35,544 bases of DNA from Dehalococcoidia bacterium (GTDB lineage: Bacteria > Chloroflexota > Dehalococcoidia > SZUA-161 > SpSt-899). The DNA is taken from assembly GCA_028711995.1 (NCBI GenBank), contig JAQTRE010000019.1, positions 1 to 35,544 of the forward strand, written 5' to 3'. The position numbers and the translations under genes are program-made. Within the stretch, counting starts at the first letter, position 1, and the number at the start of each line of letters is the position of its first letter. The notes beneath the pieces are model-generated. The model worked only from the letters and a program-made list of their open reading frames with translations, was not told the DNA's origin and ran no database searches. Below are positions 1-7,383 of the stretch, piece after piece.

Positions 1-1
1 A

Positions 2-73
2 TTGGCTGTTCTCATGGAGGATTCTCCCCCTCAATCTGAATCTGAGTTGATTCTACCAGATACGTGGGGGTGA
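2..73 (+). CDS. Possible 3' end of a truncated gene at the window edge
   Basis: A reading frame open from the window edge ends at TGA 71-73 and would encode a 23-residue acidic C-terminus ending LILPDTWG. Its start lies outside the window, so no domain can be named. It could equally be chance. The only support is that it is open to the edge and is followed by hairpin-rich non-coding DNA. Confidence 0.25.
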   Translation: MAVLMEDSPPQSESELILPDTWG

Positions 74-149
74 AGGCATTACAAAATCAGTCAAAGTCGA
101 GGCTGAAATCAAAACTAAACAGCCTCCTCCCCAAAAAGAGGTAATGAAC

Positions 150-216
150 TACCCCGCCGCAAGCTGACGGGGTATCACGCATCAACCCATCATCCCATTC
201 AGCGCGGCAAGCCGCG
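150..216. repeat. Two adjacent REP-like palindromic hairpins
   Basis: The first hairpin pairs TACCCCG (150-156) with CGGGGTA (168-174) around an 11-nt loop. The second is the perfect palindrome CGCGGC-AA-GCCGCG at 203-216. Both carry GC-rich stems with a CAAG-type centre, the look of REP elements or IS200/IS605 ends. No transposase lies next to them. Bases 217-390 hold nothing recognisable except the weak promoter candidate listed below. Confidence 0.5.
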
Positions 217-310
217 GGGAATGCACCCTATCCCTGATTCATGGTAGCCAAGTGGGAATTCCCCATATCAAATTGGTGAATTCCCTCAGCAAAGTTTGTT
301 GCTGGCCCTG

Positions 311-339
311 TTCAAGAGAACTGCCCCGTCTGGTAAATT
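311..339 (+). promoter_or_regulatory. Candidate promoter for the riboswitch transcript
   Basis: TTCAAG (311-316) and TAAATT (334-339) are separated by 17 nt. A transcript would begin near 346 and run into the aptamer at 428. The -35 match is weak; the placement is the main argument. Confidence 0.28.
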
Positions 340-391
340 AGCTCAGAGGAGGATTTCCAGAGCCTCCTCCTTACAATTTCATAGAGAATCC

Positions 392-423
392 AGCCGCTAT
401 CCTCTTTCAGGATATAGCGGCTG
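392..423. repeat. Inverted repeat just upstream of the riboswitch
   Basis: AGCCGCTATCCT and AGGATATAGCGGCT form a long stem with a two-base bulge and a short CTTTC loop. It ends five bases before helix P1 of the aptamer and would form an independent hairpin in the leader. A second pair, GAGGAGG and CCTCCTC, lies at about 346-369. Confidence 0.55.
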
Positions 424-427
424 GGAA

Positions 428-526
428 GATCCGAGAAAGGCAAATCAGGAGAAATCCTGAGACGCAAAACCACGGGCCTGAAGTCCATCCAGGACAAGGC
501 AGCCGGGTTGCCGAAGATCCTCGATC
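428..526 (+). ncRNA. Cyclic di-GMP-I riboswitch (GEMM-I aptamer)
   Basis: The aptamer architecture is visible in order. The P1 strands are GATCCGAG (428-435) and CTCGATC (520-526). AAAGGCAAA follows, then a hairpin CAGGA-GAAA-TCCTG (446-459) whose GNRA tetraloop is the family's docking element. The hallmark AGACGCAAAACC comes next, then GGGCCTGAAG, which opens the third helix (GTCC 483-486 with GGAC 492-495). The receptor-side AAGGC and the conserved AGCCGGGTTGCCGAAG close it. This matches the class I c-di-GMP riboswitch known from leaders of chemotaxis, motility and surface genes. An intrinsic terminator at 558-584 is the probable expression platform, so c-di-GMP would control read-through. 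The next convincing gene is the chemoreceptor at 1173, unusually far away. Confidence 0.88.
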
Positions 527-557
527 AAAGTGCTTATTGGGTTCGCACATTTGCATT

Positions 558-584
558 GGGGTGCCTTTCCGGGCACCCCTTTTT
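558..584 (+). terminator. Intrinsic terminator, probable riboswitch expression platform
   Basis: GGGGTGCC (558-565) pairs perfectly with GGCACCCC (572-579) around TTTCCG and is followed by five T residues (580-584). It sits 31 nt after the aptamer's P1, the normal place for a transcriptional expression platform. Confidence 0.85.
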
Positions 585-1172
585 GTTGGGCAAAAGGGGG
601 GCTTCCATACAGATTTGCACAGATACGATCATGACAAAAACCACGAACGCAGTGAAAAATCAAAACGCCAGGCAACGGACTTCGGGGACGAAGTTGAATG
701 GAATAGCCGGACGATGAGGATGGGAAAATTTGAACTTTAGTAGCCATGCTTACGGATTTCCTGAAAGCGTAAACCCATCGTATGAAACCAGCGATGTGGA
801 CTGGCTGTGCCATCGGAATCGAGTCAACCGGCAAGAACGAGAGAGCGAGAAGGGAAAACGATCAACATGCCCGGAAACTCCAATCGGACGGATGCAGACG
901 CCTGCTCGCAGCTCCACTAGCGATTCACTGATACTGATGCGTAATGGCCCCAGGGATGGAGAGATCATGGCGAAATCCAATCCGGGGGAACTTTCGTAGA
1001 TCATAGCAAATCTTTAAAAATCTTAAGGAAATAGGAAGGAGGAGAACATCGAAAACTGCGGATAAGTCAATAGACAACAAAAACCAAGTGGGACTGTCGA
1101 ACATCTCGGAATGCCCAAAGATGAGCACTCCCCGGTATCAAAACTATCTTGTATAAAGGAGGACAAACGGAA
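585..1172 (+). other. 588-nt leader rich in local hairpins, no convincing gene
   Basis: No reading frame here has a good ribosome binding site or a recognisable product. Local stems are frequent: ACTTCG-GGGA-CGAAGT near 678-695, TTACG and CGTAA near 749-771, and CATCG and CGATG near 777-797. The density suggests a structured untranslated leader, but I cannot assign it to an RNA family. A strong AAAGGAGG precedes the chemoreceptor ATG at its end. Confidence 0.4.
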
Positions 1173-3203
1173 ATGAAAAAGTTGACAAACATGCGAATGA
1201 GCATAAAAGCTAAACTCCTGGGCGGGTTTTTGCTGGTGATTATATTATTTCTGGCTATGTTCAGCCTGGGTTATATGGGGCTAAACACCATGGGCGATAA
1301 GAAAGACGAGATCGTCAAACAGAATGAAATTGCCGTCACCATGGAAAAGATGGATTACGAGGCAGTGGTAGCGTTTTTCTCGGCAATGAACGGAGCGAGT
1401 CCAACCAATCCAATGGCTGCAACCTATCGAGATCTGGCAGCTCAACATAGGACAGTATTCCTGGATATTGTTGATACGCTACGCACTTTATTGCCTCCGG
1501 ATCAGATCGCAGTGCTCAATGACTACGGCGAATTTAGTGAAGCATCGTATGTGGCGGCAGCCAATCCGGCAGGCCTCGATATAAAGGCCATGGCTGAGAG
1601 CCAACAGAAGATGGCAGTCGGCAAAGACACATTAAAGACAAGCACGGCCGACGCTATGCTGGCAGCTCAGAAGAGCGCCGATGATGCCAAGACATCGGCC
1701 ATCATCATGGCCTTGATCATGTCGGCGATCGCTGTAGCACTGGCTATTGTTGTTGGATTCTTCCTCTCCCGCTCCATCGCCAACAACACCAAGAAAGTGG
1801 TCAAAGCGGCTGACCAGATCGCCGATACTGACCTAGTAGCTCTGGCCAGCGCCACTGCGGCCATGTCAGAGGGTGACCTGACTCGATCGGTCTCCGTACA
1901 AACCCAGCCCATCGCCATCAAATCCAATGACGAACTGGGCGATCTGGCCAAATCCTTCAACCGCATGATCGCCCGGCTGTATGAAACCGGCCAGTCCTTC
2001 TCCCTGATGTCCGCCAAGATGAGTGGCCTCATCGGCAAAGTAGCGGAAAACTCTATTCAACTGAGAACTGCTAGCGACCAACTCTCTTCGGCAGCCGAAC
2101 AAGCCGGTTCCGCCACCCAGCAGGTGGCCAGCACCACCCAGCAGATGGCCAAGGGTGCCGGAGATCAGGCCGTCAGCACTCAGGAAACCGCCAAAGCCGT
2201 TGACCAGCTCACCGAAGTCATCTCACAAATCGCCAAGGGGGCTCAGGATCAGGCCAGCGGTGTCCAGAAAGCCACTTCCGCCATCGGAGAAGTGTCCACA
2301 TCATCTCAACAGATGGCCAAGAACGCTATCGGCGCCGCCGATAGCGCCAAGAAGGCCGCCCAGACCGCCAAGACCGGTACAGAAGTCACCAAGAAGACCG
2401 TCGAAGGCATAGAGCGCGTCCGGGATAGCTCCATGGCCGTTTTCCAAAAGATTTCCGAGATGAACAAGAACTCCGAGCAGATCGGCAGAATTGTGGCGGT
2501 GATTGATGATATTGCCGCCCAGACCAACCTCCTGGCTCTCAATGCCGCTATCGAAGCGGCCCGGGCAGGGGAACACGGCCGGGGGTTTGCCGTGGTTGCC
2601 GACGAGGTCAGAAAGCTCGCCGAGCGTTCATCCACCGCCACCAAGGAGATCGCCGCTCTCATTACCGGCATCCAGAGCAACATCGGAGAGTCCGCCAAAG
2701 CCATGGAACAGGGGCAACACGAAGTGGACGAAGGATGCAAGTTTGCCACCCAATCCGGCAAGGCTCTGGAAGAAATTCTGAAGGAGACAACCGAAGCCGC
2801 CAATCAGATCGAGCAGATTTCCAGAGGCGCCCAGCAGGTGAGCAACTCCACCCATGATCTGGTCAGTATCATCGATAGCGTCGGCGCAGTGACCGAGCAG
2901 AGCATGGCCGCCACCGAACAGATGACTGCCAATGCTCAACAAGTGGCCAATGCCATTGAGAACATTGCCGGTATCGCCGAAGAGAACAGCGCAGCAACCC
3001 AGGAGACATCGGCTTCCGCCGAAGAGATGAGTTCCCAGGTAGAGGAGATCGTCGCCGCCTCCCTGTCGCTCAACCAAATGGCCGAGGAACTTCAGACCAC
3101 CGTATCCGTGTTCAAGACCAATGGCCATGGACATGGCACGCACAAAGATATCGCCGGAAGCGAGAAGCTATCGGTCAACGAGAAGGTGTTAGTCCGAAAT
3201 TAA
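1173..3203 (+). CDS. Methyl-accepting chemotaxis protein
   Basis: Transmembrane chemoreceptor of 676 residues. A first membrane helix spans about residues 14-36, followed by a roughly 135-residue extracytoplasmic four-helix-type sensor. A second helix spans about 173-198, then comes a HAMP region to about 270 (it contains [14 protein letters not shown]). The long cytoplasmic coiled coil has its hairpin tip at about 449-485, with [20 protein letters not shown] and [18 protein letters not shown], where CheA and CheW bind. ATG 1173 was chosen over the in-frame TTG 1149 because AAAGGAGG lies just ahead of it. The C-terminus lacks a CheR-docking pentapeptide. The ligand cannot be read from the sequence. 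cheW follows downstream, after a hairpin. A c-di-GMP riboswitch in the same orientation upstream may control it. Confidence 0.95.
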
Positions 3204-3213
3204 GAGAACGTGC

Positions 3214-3242
3214 GGGGAAGGGGACGGAGATTCCCCTTCCCC
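3214..3242 (+). terminator. Intercistronic hairpin between the chemoreceptor and cheW
   Basis: GGGGAAGGGGA (3214-3224) pairs perfectly with TCCCCTTCCCC (3232-3242) around a 7-nt loop. There is no T tract, so it may attenuate or stabilise the message rather than terminate it fully. Confidence 0.55.
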
Positions 3243-3310
3243 CTTCGCCAACCCGAATCCTGACAGATATTGTGCTTAATTACCATCATCTATTAGGGAG
3301 GACAACTGTT

Positions 3311-3835
3311 ATGAACACGAATACCCAAACAAAAGAGGCCGAGCGCCAACTGGTGATCTTCAGCCTGGCCAATGAATCCTACGGCGTGGATATCGGCACG
3401 GTCAATGAAATCATCCGAATGCAGGATATCTCCCGGGTGCCCAGAGCGCCGAATTTTGTCCAAGGGGTCATCAATCTCAGGGGCAAGGTCATTCCCGTGG
3501 TGGACCTGCGCAAGGTTTTCTGCCTTCCTGCCGGGGAGACAAACAGGGAGACCCGCATCGTGGTGGTAGACATTCTGGAACAACACGTCGGTATTATGGT
3601 TGACGCCGTAACGGAGGTGCTGCGCATCTCCGCTGACGCTGTTGAGCCTCCGGCATCGATGATCACCACCGGTGATGCCGATTATCTCCTCGGAATCGCC
3701 AAGCTCGATCACAAGCTCATCACCCTGCTCGACCTGAGCAAAGTCTTCAGCCGAGACCAGGCCAAAAGCTTCGAAGAAGCTGACCTCCCCCAAACCGAGA
3801 AACCCACCCGTCCAATGACCATGGCTAGAGCCTGA
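3311..3835 (+). CDS. cheW: Chemotaxis adaptor protein CheW
   Basis: Cytoplasmic coupling protein of 174 residues that links chemoreceptors to the CheA kinase. The family core is clear: LVIFSLANESYGVDI at the N-terminus, VPRAPNFVQGVINLRGKVIP with VVDLRKVF in the middle, then the second subdomain with VGIMVDAVTEVLRI and a closing LITLLDLSKVF. Length is normal for CheW plus a short tail. ATG 3311 was chosen because AGGGAGG (3296-3302) precedes it; the upstream in-frame GTG at 3272 has no such site. No cheA, cheY or cheR lies in the window, so the rest of the pathway must be elsewhere. Confidence 0.95.
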   Translation: MNTNTQTKEAERQLVIFSLANESYGVDIGTVNEIIRMQDISRVPRAPNFVQGVINLRGKVIPVVDLRKVFCLPAGETNRETRIVVVDILEQHVGIMVDAVTEVLRISADAVEPPASMITTGDADYLLGIAKLDHKLITLLDLSKVFSRDQAKSFEEADLPQTEKPTRPMTMARA

Positions 3836-3843
3836 TGAACTTT

Positions 3844-3883
3844 CTTCCGACAGGGGCGAGGATTTCTCAGCCCTTGTCGGAAG
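3844..3883 (+). terminator. Long hairpin after cheW
   Basis: CTTCCGACAGGGGC (3844-3857) pairs with GCCCTTGTCGGAAG (3870-3883) with one G-T wobble over 14 bp. It starts nine bases after the cheW stop. No T run follows, so termination efficiency is uncertain. Confidence 0.65.
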
Positions 3884-4443
3884 ATTCACCCATCCGAGCC
3901 CGAACCGCCGGAACCCCGACATTTCCCCGTATCCACGCCCAAGACTCCTGCCATTGTGCCAACCAACTGGGTTATGCCGCCTCGTGATGTGAGAAATAGG
4001 CTTACCTATACCCACAGAGTCTTTGCGCCTGGCAATAACCTCCTGGGATGAATGACCAAACTTGCTATCCACACTGCAAATCGTGAGCAAAAATGGAACT
4101 GCGATAATATAGTCACGAAACCGAGCGGTGGAAGGGATAGCGTGAACTCTCATGACAAGTAGACCACAATGTGGAAAGGATCTGGTCGTGTCTCGGATGT
4201 CGCATACAAGATGCTAAAACCCAATTGGATTATCAGAGTGTGGTAGCCTTCCGCACCATCGGATTACCAGGTTGGTCGTATACAATCGTGTCGATCACCT
4301 TGTCCCATATCTTCATGCGAACACAGAAAACTGAAAGCACTTGATTTGCCGGAATCGAAAGCCTTATGCTACGGATAGAAAGTCGCTCGTGACGATTCGA
4401 TCGCTTTCAAGATCAACATTGCCAACAAACACAAAGGAGCCTC
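3884..4443. other. Intergenic region without a recognised gene
   Basis: About 560 nt separate cheW from the metallopeptidase gene. I see no credible coding frame, RNA gene or riboswitch. It presumably holds the promoter of the downstream gene. AAAGGAG at about 4434-4440 is that gene's ribosome binding site. Confidence 0.4.
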
Positions 4444-7383
4444 ATGAACTTCACCAATCAGTTTCAACGACGTTTTGTTCTTGGAATCCTCATCCTGATC
4501 ATCGCCAGTATGATGCTGATCCCGGCGGGGACTATCGCAGCGCAGGATGAGCCGCTGTTTGCCGAAAATGACTGCGACTGTGAAGACTTGGGATGGAAGA
4601 CCAGCGCTGATCACTCCCGATACACAGACTCCGCCAGTTACGAATGGCTGCAAAAGGATTTTGGATTTTCTGCCTCGGAACTCCATTGCGAATATGCCAA
4701 GGGAAAAGGATATGAGCCCCGGCTGAGCCTTTCCATCATACATACCCAGACGCCGGAACAAACCGAGGAACTGGCCAACTACTACTTGGCGCAGGCATCG
4801 AAGACGGCGGATTTCTACGCCCAGAAAGAAGGCTATAACGTCATCGATCACGACGAATCCGAAGTAAGCCGATATTCCCACCTCTCGGTACATAACGATA
4901 CCAGAAGCGGTCTATACTACTACGGCTACCGAGCCATCCTCCACCCGGATAATTTCCTGGTGGTCGTTTCCGGATGGGGATACGAAGCCGATTTCAAAAG
5001 CAAAGAGGATTTCAAGATAGCTTTCGACCGGCTTGAACAGCATGCCATGGCGCTTCTCGGCGACAAGCAGGAAGAGAAAACCGAGGGCACCATCACCGGC
5101 TTCGATATCGGGATGAGCCGGATGCACCTCAGCCTGCTTCACCAAGATGAAATGATGGTCACCACCACCAATGCCTATGGGCGCTATGAATTCCCGGTGA
5201 AGCTGGAGAAGGACGAAGAATATGAACTGACCCTCCATTTTGAATACGTGCGTGAGGGGAAGACGGTTTTCCGGATTCGCTTTCAGGATAATGCCATTCC
5301 TGCCAAAATTGTGCTGCAAATAAAAGGGGACAATATCACCCAGGCATGGCTGGATCTCGGTGGCAATATGTATGGCGAATTGCCGGTTTCCCATATCTCC
5401 CTCTCGGAATTGAAATTGGACGAACTATTAAACTCGGAGGAATTCGCCAGCCTTGTCAGCATGTACATCCACTTTTCCGAAGCACTGGCGTTCTATACCG
5501 ATGGTCTGGGCGTCAAACTGAATTTCCAGCTGCCCATTGAAGTCCACGCTTTTACCGATCCCGAAAGCGAACCCACCGCTTACAACTACGCTCTGGGTAT
5601 GAGTTGGATCAACATCGACGAGGCGAAATCCTATCATTCATCGCCCTATCGGCCCATTCACCGGGAATACCATGAATTCAGTCACTACGTAATGCATGCT
5701 CTCTACGGCGCATTGCCGGTACCGAAAAACCCGCCCGTTCCGGAGATCAATCACGGCGGTTATGCCAATCCCAGCACCTCGGATTCCTTTGTGGAAGGCT
5801 TCGCCATTTTCATGTCCATCATGATGGCCAATAGCCTGGGCGATACCATTCCCCATCCGCCGGTGCGCCTGATGGAACTGATGACGTCCGGCAGAGCCGA
5901 GATGCTCAGAGATTTGGAACCCGATTACCTGGCCTGGGAGAAAAACGGCAAGGCCGAGGAGGTAGCCGTGGCCGCGGTGCTATGGGACCTTGTGGATTCA
6001 GCCCAAGACTACCGGGCTCCCGAAGATGAAGCATTTCGGCGCGAAACGATTGAGACGATGGTCGATTCGGCCTTGCAACAGAACGATGTCAACAACAACG
6101 GGCAGATAGAACGGGATGAATGGATTGCCCACATCTTCTTCATGAGAGCACAAGATTACACTGAGGACGGGGCACTCGATTGGAACGAATGGAATTCGGT
6201 CACACAGGACAGGGCGGACCAGCTGAAAAAGGGAGAACCATTGCCCGATGCCGATGAACTGAATACCTATGTCGATAATGAAATCCTCGGCGTTTATGAC
6301 CTGAACGGAGATCGCACTCTGCAATTCGCCGAGCTGAAAGAACTCCAAATGGCATTATCGGGCAGCGCAGCATCCGTTAACGACACTCTGCTGCAAGAGA
6401 TTTTCAGGAAACTCGATGCCGATGCCAGCAACGGGCTGGCGGGCAAAGAATTGCTGAAATTGGCCGTTACCGATCTTCAGCCCAACCGGATTTGGGAAAC
6501 CTACGACACAGACCGAGATGAAAAGATCAGCAAGGCCGAACTGATACAAATGGCCCCCATCGAATGGAAGTGGATGCAACATCAAGAGAGCAGCGTGACA
6601 GATTACCCGAATCTGCCCCAGGTCATCAGCTCAGACTATCTGTGGCAGGCAACAACCCCCCAGGATGACGACATAGTCAGTATCAGCTTTGAGAAAATCT
6701 GGGGAATTTTGAGCCAATACCATCAGGATTTCACCGCGGTTTACCAGTCTTTGATCAACACGTATCCGGATCAGAAGGACGGCATCGACCAGATATTCAA
6801 GGCCCACGGCTTTTTTGCCGATGTGAATCCTCAAAACCAGAAATGGGACTCCGGGGAAGCTATCGGCCGGGCGGCCGATGCCTCCACTGAGGACAGAAAG
6901 CAGCGCCGAAGCACCCAGGAACTACCGGGACAATTCATCAAGGTGAATAACGAAGTCCCGTATTACAACGTGGCGGTGTTGTTCCCTTTGCAGCCGCACC
7001 TGAGCTACCTTGCCCGAACCGCCAACACTGGCGGATGGGTCTATGTACAGATTCCACCAGAAGCCTATCTGGCACAAATCACAGTGGCGGCTGAGGGCGT
7101 CCAGAGCAATAATCCGCTGACCTTTACTACGCCGCAATTCAACGCCGCCTATGAGGAATCGTTAGCCCAAGGGTATTTTGTGACCCATGACTTTGGAATC
7201 GTAGGGGATATCCCAGCCTTGCCAGCATTCCCGTTCGACGATGCCGACGCAGCCGGCACCAGCAAGGACGAGTCGGCAGAAACAGAATCGGACGGCGGTT
7301 CAAACGCGGCCTTCATCGGCGTCTTGGCGATCATTGTGGTCGCATTGGTTATCGGCACATATTGGTTCATCCGCCGAAAATGA
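4444..7383 (+). CDS. Secreted, membrane-anchored HEFSH metallopeptidase with EF-hand-like loops
   Basis: Protein of 979 residues. It begins with a signal peptide (hydrophobic LGILILIIASMMLIPAG, then IAAQDE) and ends with one membrane helix at about 952-975 and a basic tail, so the bulk faces outward. Residues 410-414 read HEFSH, an HExxH zinc site. DSFVEGFA follows, with Glu451 as likely third ligand, the layout of gluzincin-type peptidases. A carboxypeptidase-regulatory-like beta segment lies at about 217-290. Five acidic EF-hand-like loops start at residues 548, 571, 619, 658 and 688 (for example DVNNNGQIERDE); the second and fourth are imperfect. Calcium probably stabilises or activates it. 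AAAGGAG precedes the ATG. The substrate is unknown. No close named family can be given beyond metallopeptidase. Confidence 0.8.
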   Translation: MNFTNQFQRRFVLGILILIIASMMLIPAGTIAAQDEPLFAENDCDCEDLGWKTSADHSRYTDSASYEWLQKDFGFSASELHCEYAKGKGYEPRLSLSIIHTQTPEQTEELANYYLAQASKTADFYAQKEGYNVIDHDESEVSRYSHLSVHNDTRSGLYYYGYRAILHPDNFLVVVSGWGYEADFKSKEDFKIAFDRLEQHAMALLGDKQEEKTEGTITGFDIGMSRMHLSLLHQDEMMVTTTNAYGRYEFPVKLEKDEEYELTLHFEYVREGKTVFRIRFQDNAIPAKIVLQIKGDNITQAWLDLGGNMYGELPVSHISLSELKLDELLNSEEFASLVSMYIHFSEALAFYTDGLGVKLNFQLPIEVHAFTDPESEPTAYNYALGMSWINIDEAKSYHSSPYRPIHREYHEFSHYVMHALYGALPVPKNPPVPEINHGGYANPSTSDSFVEGFAIFMSIMMANSLGDTIPHPPVRLMELMTSGRAEMLRDLEPDYLAWEKNGKAEEVAVAAVLWDLVDSAQDYRAPEDEAFRRETIETMVDSALQQNDVNNNGQIERDEWIAHIFFMRAQDYTEDGALDWNEWNSVTQDRADQLKKGEPLPDADELNTYVDNEILGVYDLNGDRTLQFAELKELQMALSGSAASVNDTLLQEIFRKLDADASNGLAGKELLKLAVTDLQPNRIWETYDTDRDEKISKAELIQMAPIEWKWMQHQESSVTDYPNLPQVISSDYLWQATTPQDDDIVSISFEKIWGILSQYHQDFTAVYQSLINTYPDQKDGIDQIFKAHGFFADVNPQNQKWDSGEAIGRAADASTEDRKQRRSTQELPGQFIKVNNEVPYYNVAVLFPLQPHLSYLARTANTGGWVYVQIPPEAYLAQITVAAEGVQSNNPLTFTTPQFNAAYEESLAQGYFVTHDFGIVGDIPALPAFPFDDADAAGTSKDESAETESDGGSNAAFIGVLAIIVVALVIGTYWFIRRK

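Follow-up and report, generated by a model that had tools for sequence, protein, structure and literature searches.

A class I c-di-GMP riboswitch as a probable transcriptional OFF switch for a chemoreceptor-cheW operon in a Dehalococcoidia bacterium

Results

We analysed a 35,544-nt contig of a Dehalococcoidia bacterium (hereafter the window) in which a class I c-di-GMP riboswitch precedes genes for a methyl-accepting chemotaxis protein (MCP) and CheW, and we propose, at a probability of about two in three, that it acts as a transcriptional OFF switch on this MCP-cheW operon. The aptamer, an intrinsic terminator, two alternative folds that exclude each other at equal predicted energy, and the genes come from sequence and computation. 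The riboswitch is genuine, its terminator well formed and its antiterminator plausible, and its most likely effect is to lower MCP-cheW expression at high c-di-GMP.

Aptamer and upstream region

An Rfam scan of the whole window returned one match above any family's gathering score, to RF01051 (c-di-GMP-I) at 429-515 on the + strand (84.2 bits against a gathering score of 35; E 2e-15 over the whole window). The match spans model positions 1-87 of 87, RF01051 is the best family in its clan, and a more permissive Rfam rescan of 1-4500 gave nothing credible beyond it. Together with the terminator at 558-584, this full-length covariance-model match, well above threshold, bears out the sequence-only reading, which had called a c-di-GMP-I riboswitch with terminator here; the GNRA-capped hairpin, GACGCAAA and AGCCGGGTTGCC that it described are all present in the aligned match. 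P2 is GAAA-capped (445-460), and the junction elements GGCAAA, GACGCAAA and GCCGAA are all found. The pocket segment AAAGGCAAA has a G at a position that we take, by inspection, to correspond to Vc2 G20. An outer helix, P1, closes the aptamer (428-519, + strand) by pairing GATC at 428-431 with GATC at 516-519, and compensating changes of P1 pairs are seen between riboswitch copies (e.g. CTC/GAG, CAC/GTG). Compared with dinucleotide shuffles, the stretch 380-600 folds better by 5.6 sd.

A strong hairpin without a U-run (391-425, +) immediately precedes the aptamer and folds in every prefix tested; in the C191 riboswitch copy, too, the aptamer is immediately preceded by a hairpin. Further upstream, sequence and paralog alignment weakly suggest a candidate -10 box, TACAAT (372-377, +), within a stretch identical in the paralogous locus on contig C3; a good -35 is absent.

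Terminator and competing fold

The intrinsic terminator (558-584, +) consists of a hairpin at 558-579 (9 pairs, 7 of them G-C; -17.5 kcal/mol) followed by T5 at 580-584, and is joined to the aptamer by an expression-platform linker (516-557, +). We folded truncated transcripts that begin at a putative start site close to 384. Once 562-573 has been made, the best fold pairs ~431-442 with 562-571, a terminator segment that doubles as the switching strand, and 518-533 of the linker with 545-561. For transcripts that stop at 573 or at 579 this antiterminator fold is the minimum free energy structure; it is predicted to be complete before the terminator. At 585 the terminator and antiterminator folds lie within 0.5 kcal/mol (-83.5 and -83.0 kcal/mol) and are predicted to be isoenergetic. 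In these computed folds the terminator and the aptamer-competing antiterminator are mutually exclusive.

The complementarity on which this competition depends, between the terminator's 5' arm plus loop and the aptamer's 5' strand, has a better duplex energy in the window copy than dinucleotide shuffles (z -3.1, p 0.007). It also beats shuffles in G000_C48 and in the G003 copies C198a, C60, C177 and C258 (p 0.003-0.023), and is significant in copies from G101, G113 and G138. Overall, just 10 of 37 terminators reach p<0.05; about three quarters of this wider set fail, including most copies from more distant families.

Since the competing helix is built with aptamer sequence, ligand should favour the terminator, as in an OFF switch. 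RNA polymerase would first transcribe the aptamer. If c-di-GMP binds, P1 and the junction would keep hold of the 5' strand (~428-442), the 558-579 terminator could form, and transcription would end near 584. With ligand absent, the 5' strand would shift to pairing with 562-571, and the region of the 3' P1 strand to pairing with 545-561; this would mask the 5' arm of the terminator, and polymerase would continue through 588 nt of unstructured leader to reach the MCP and cheW genes. High c-di-GMP would be expected to give less MCP-cheW read-through.

Genes and leader

As the sequence-only reading had it, the first convincing genes after the riboswitch are an MCP gene and then cheW, both confirmed by Pfam: an MCP with HAMP and MCPsignal domains (1173-3203, +) and cheW (3311-3835, +). 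The MCP start is the ATG at 1173, with AGGAGG at 1158-1163, and the distance of 588 nt from terminator end to MCP start (585-1172) is exact. A search for this MCP across the named genomes found distant receptors only.

The sequence-only reading had suggested, from this distance, a long structured leader or else a lost or short gene in between. Neither suggestion gained support. The leader (585-1172, +) is homologous only to that of the C3 operon, and 601-1172 folds no better than shuffles; with no Rfam match in 585-1172 even at E 5, we reject a structured leader RNA or second riboswitch. An 89-codon frame with a TTG start (730-999, +) is shared with the C3 paralog, open in both, with in-frame indels. 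It evolves like control frames (dN/dS ~0.7; pN/pS like the controls), has no Pfam match and has homology matches in relatives at chance level; with no sign of protein-level selection and no credible homolog, an intervening gene is not demonstrable and a coding leader was rejected. A mobile element was dismissed, as the sole other genomic copy of the leader is in the paralogous operon and none was found in the related genomes searched. An invertible switch of the C. difficile kind was likewise dismissed, since long inverted repeats (~20 bp) were not found and the 10-11-nt arms present are likely due to chance, as was a flagellar sigma-28 promoter, matches to which are not in excess and do not fall within the leader.

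The 588 nt of untranslated RNA make a long read-through distance and could expose the transcript to Rho. Among 77 related copies the distance to the first ORF of 100 codons is at least 500 nt in 20 (median 184), by crude gene calls and with tandem riboswitches or small ORFs inside some gaps.

A paralogous operon on contig C3

Contig C3 of the same genome carries a second MCP-cheW operon, with the same riboswitch class and a homologous leader; at the DNA level the two are ~90% identical across the portion of MCP-cheW that is conserved. Identity is 97% in the aptamer, 84% upstream of it, 60% over 587-1109 and 86% across the 63 nt immediately preceding the MCP, which include the ribosome-binding site. 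Synonymous sites of the MCP differ at 31% of positions (~69% identity) towards the C terminus and at 47% towards the N terminus. Most of the leader looks neutral, because its divergence resembles that of these sites. The C3 copy has kept its aptamer but no longer has the terminator or one of the P1 pairs. Switching of this operon has therefore probably ceased, and regulation by the riboswitch RNA is dispensable at least at C3. A cheW fragment lies upstream of the paralogous operon's riboswitch (L007:4561-4870) and suggests repeated duplication of the MCP-cheW module.

Genome setting and related copies

The window's genome (3.3 Mb, 240 contigs, 96% complete) holds five c-di-GMP-I copies and four MCPs, two of them behind such riboswitches. 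RF01051 matches occur in 35 of the 147 genomes searched, the window's own included, with 11 in the family member G003. On contig C258 of G003 the order is riboswitch, terminator, two small ORFs, cheW and MCP. Because this cheW-MCP operon and the second MCP-cheW operon of the window's genome follow the same riboswitch class, the link to chemoreceptor genes is not a chance feature of the locus studied here.

The first small ORF on G003_C258 encodes a membrane protein that resembles, by eye, one encoded at the head of the window genome's core che operon (contig C2), an operon without an RF01051 match. In both genomes che operons begin with a gene for a small protein of ~95 aa that has no Pfam family and seemingly a single membrane span (L127:11830-12114; L048, G003_C258).

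A single GGDEF gene was found (L127:6791-11221, contig C2). It encodes a Cache-HAMP-GAF-PAS-GGDEF-HD protein whose GGDEF motif is intact, is divergent from the core che operon and adjoins a gene for a T2SSE/PilT-like ATPase. Neither EAL nor PilZ domains were found in the 96% complete genome, nor was flagellin detected. The genome does encode two MshEN domains, which belong to a known family of protein receptors, and a c-di-GMP network made of RNA alone is thereby rejected even though PilZ and EAL were not found. With MshEN present and flagellin, EAL and PilZ not found in this incomplete genome, a pilus-type chemosensory output seems more likely than a flagellar one.

Discussion

Coupling of c-di-GMP to receptor dosage, with a predicted OFF sign, is plausible. 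Precedents exist for the aptamer class, target type, OFF logic and long gap, and as a riboswitch the element is ordinary. In C. difficile, each of the seven functional class I riboswitches works as an OFF switch; the sign varies elsewhere (PMC6366702). A close comparison is Cd1 (Cdi-1-3) of the C. difficile flgB operon, with 338 nt from terminator to flgB and a 5' UTR of 496-498 nt (PMC5386303, PMC9262584). Cd1 and the window's riboswitch (predicted OFF) share a class I aptamer, an OFF-type terminator, a long untranslated gap and a motility target. The window's riboswitch differs in its MCP-cheW target, its 588-nt gap and the absence of an invertible switch's long inverted repeats; its antiterminator draws on both the 5' (P) and the 3' strand of the aptamer, whereas Cd1 is described as T+A+H. 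MCP genes preceded by a c-di-GMP riboswitch are known elsewhere, for instance in Bacillus anthracis (PMC6366702), in a different lineage; in the window cheW follows, and the same genome has a second such operon. Bc1 of Bacillus thuringiensis (PMC11218506) resembles the window's riboswitch in its class I aptamer, long expression platform and intrinsic termination, but has two terminators 28 bp apart where the latter has one.

The ligand, the sign of the switch and read-through to the MCP gene we infer from these features. The strongest alternative, which we consider rather unlikely, is that the riboswitch no longer controls the MCP: it would make a short terminated RNA, or be the relic of a lost gap gene, with the MCP promoter within the leader. 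The 588-nt gap favours such a loss of control, as does a leader diverging at a near-neutral rate around an open frame of doubtful status, but the riboswitch stands on two types of che operon in the family. Small ORFs fill the corresponding gap in G003; they are, however, absent from the window's leader. The 86% conservation of the 63 nt just before the MCP could reflect a promoter of its own, but these nucleotides include the ribosome-binding site, the leader's one weak promoter-like site on the + strand (631-660) is within chance expectation, and no second terminator-like site was found on the + strand between 585 and 1172.

That the same RNA is an ON switch, with ligand favouring read-through, is improbable. 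Class I members of either sign are known, and some are non-responsive (PMC6366702, PMC11218506); B. thuringiensis Bc2 switches ON (PMC6366702), as does the related cGAMP pilM riboswitch (PMC9262584). Against this, aptamer and terminator do not exclude each other in the RNA studied here, and it is the 5' strand of the aptamer itself that enters the competing helix, which is OFF logic as in Cd1. Recognition of another cyclic dinucleotide such as 3',3'-cGAMP, known for GEMM-Ib variants of the same kind in Geobacter (PMC8835794), is highly improbable given the pocket G described above, the rank of RF01051 in its clan and the encoded GGDEF protein.

If the OFF-switch reading is correct, a second messenger tunes the numbers of chemoreceptor and coupling protein per cell, in a lineage with flagellin undetected and type II/IV secretion-type (pilus-like) ATPases present. 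Four MCPs, two behind riboswitches, and one GGDEF gene make a wiring small enough to test. A broader proposal is possible, though doubtful: that the family's class I riboswitches have an antiterminator in common, built by direct pairing of the aptamer's ligand-contacting 5' strand with the 5' arm and loop of the terminator, and that they use it to set chemoreceptor and CheW dosage in a flagella-less system fed by the single diguanylate cyclase gene beside the core che operon.

Two further arrangements were observed among the riboswitch copies. On contig C198 of G003 (L041, 23779-24238), tandem c-di-GMP-I riboswitches lie ~370 nt apart, each with its own terminator, and the riboswitch and terminator on C48 (L009, 3058-3145) precede a 103-codon gene for a LuxR-type-like DNA-binding protein.
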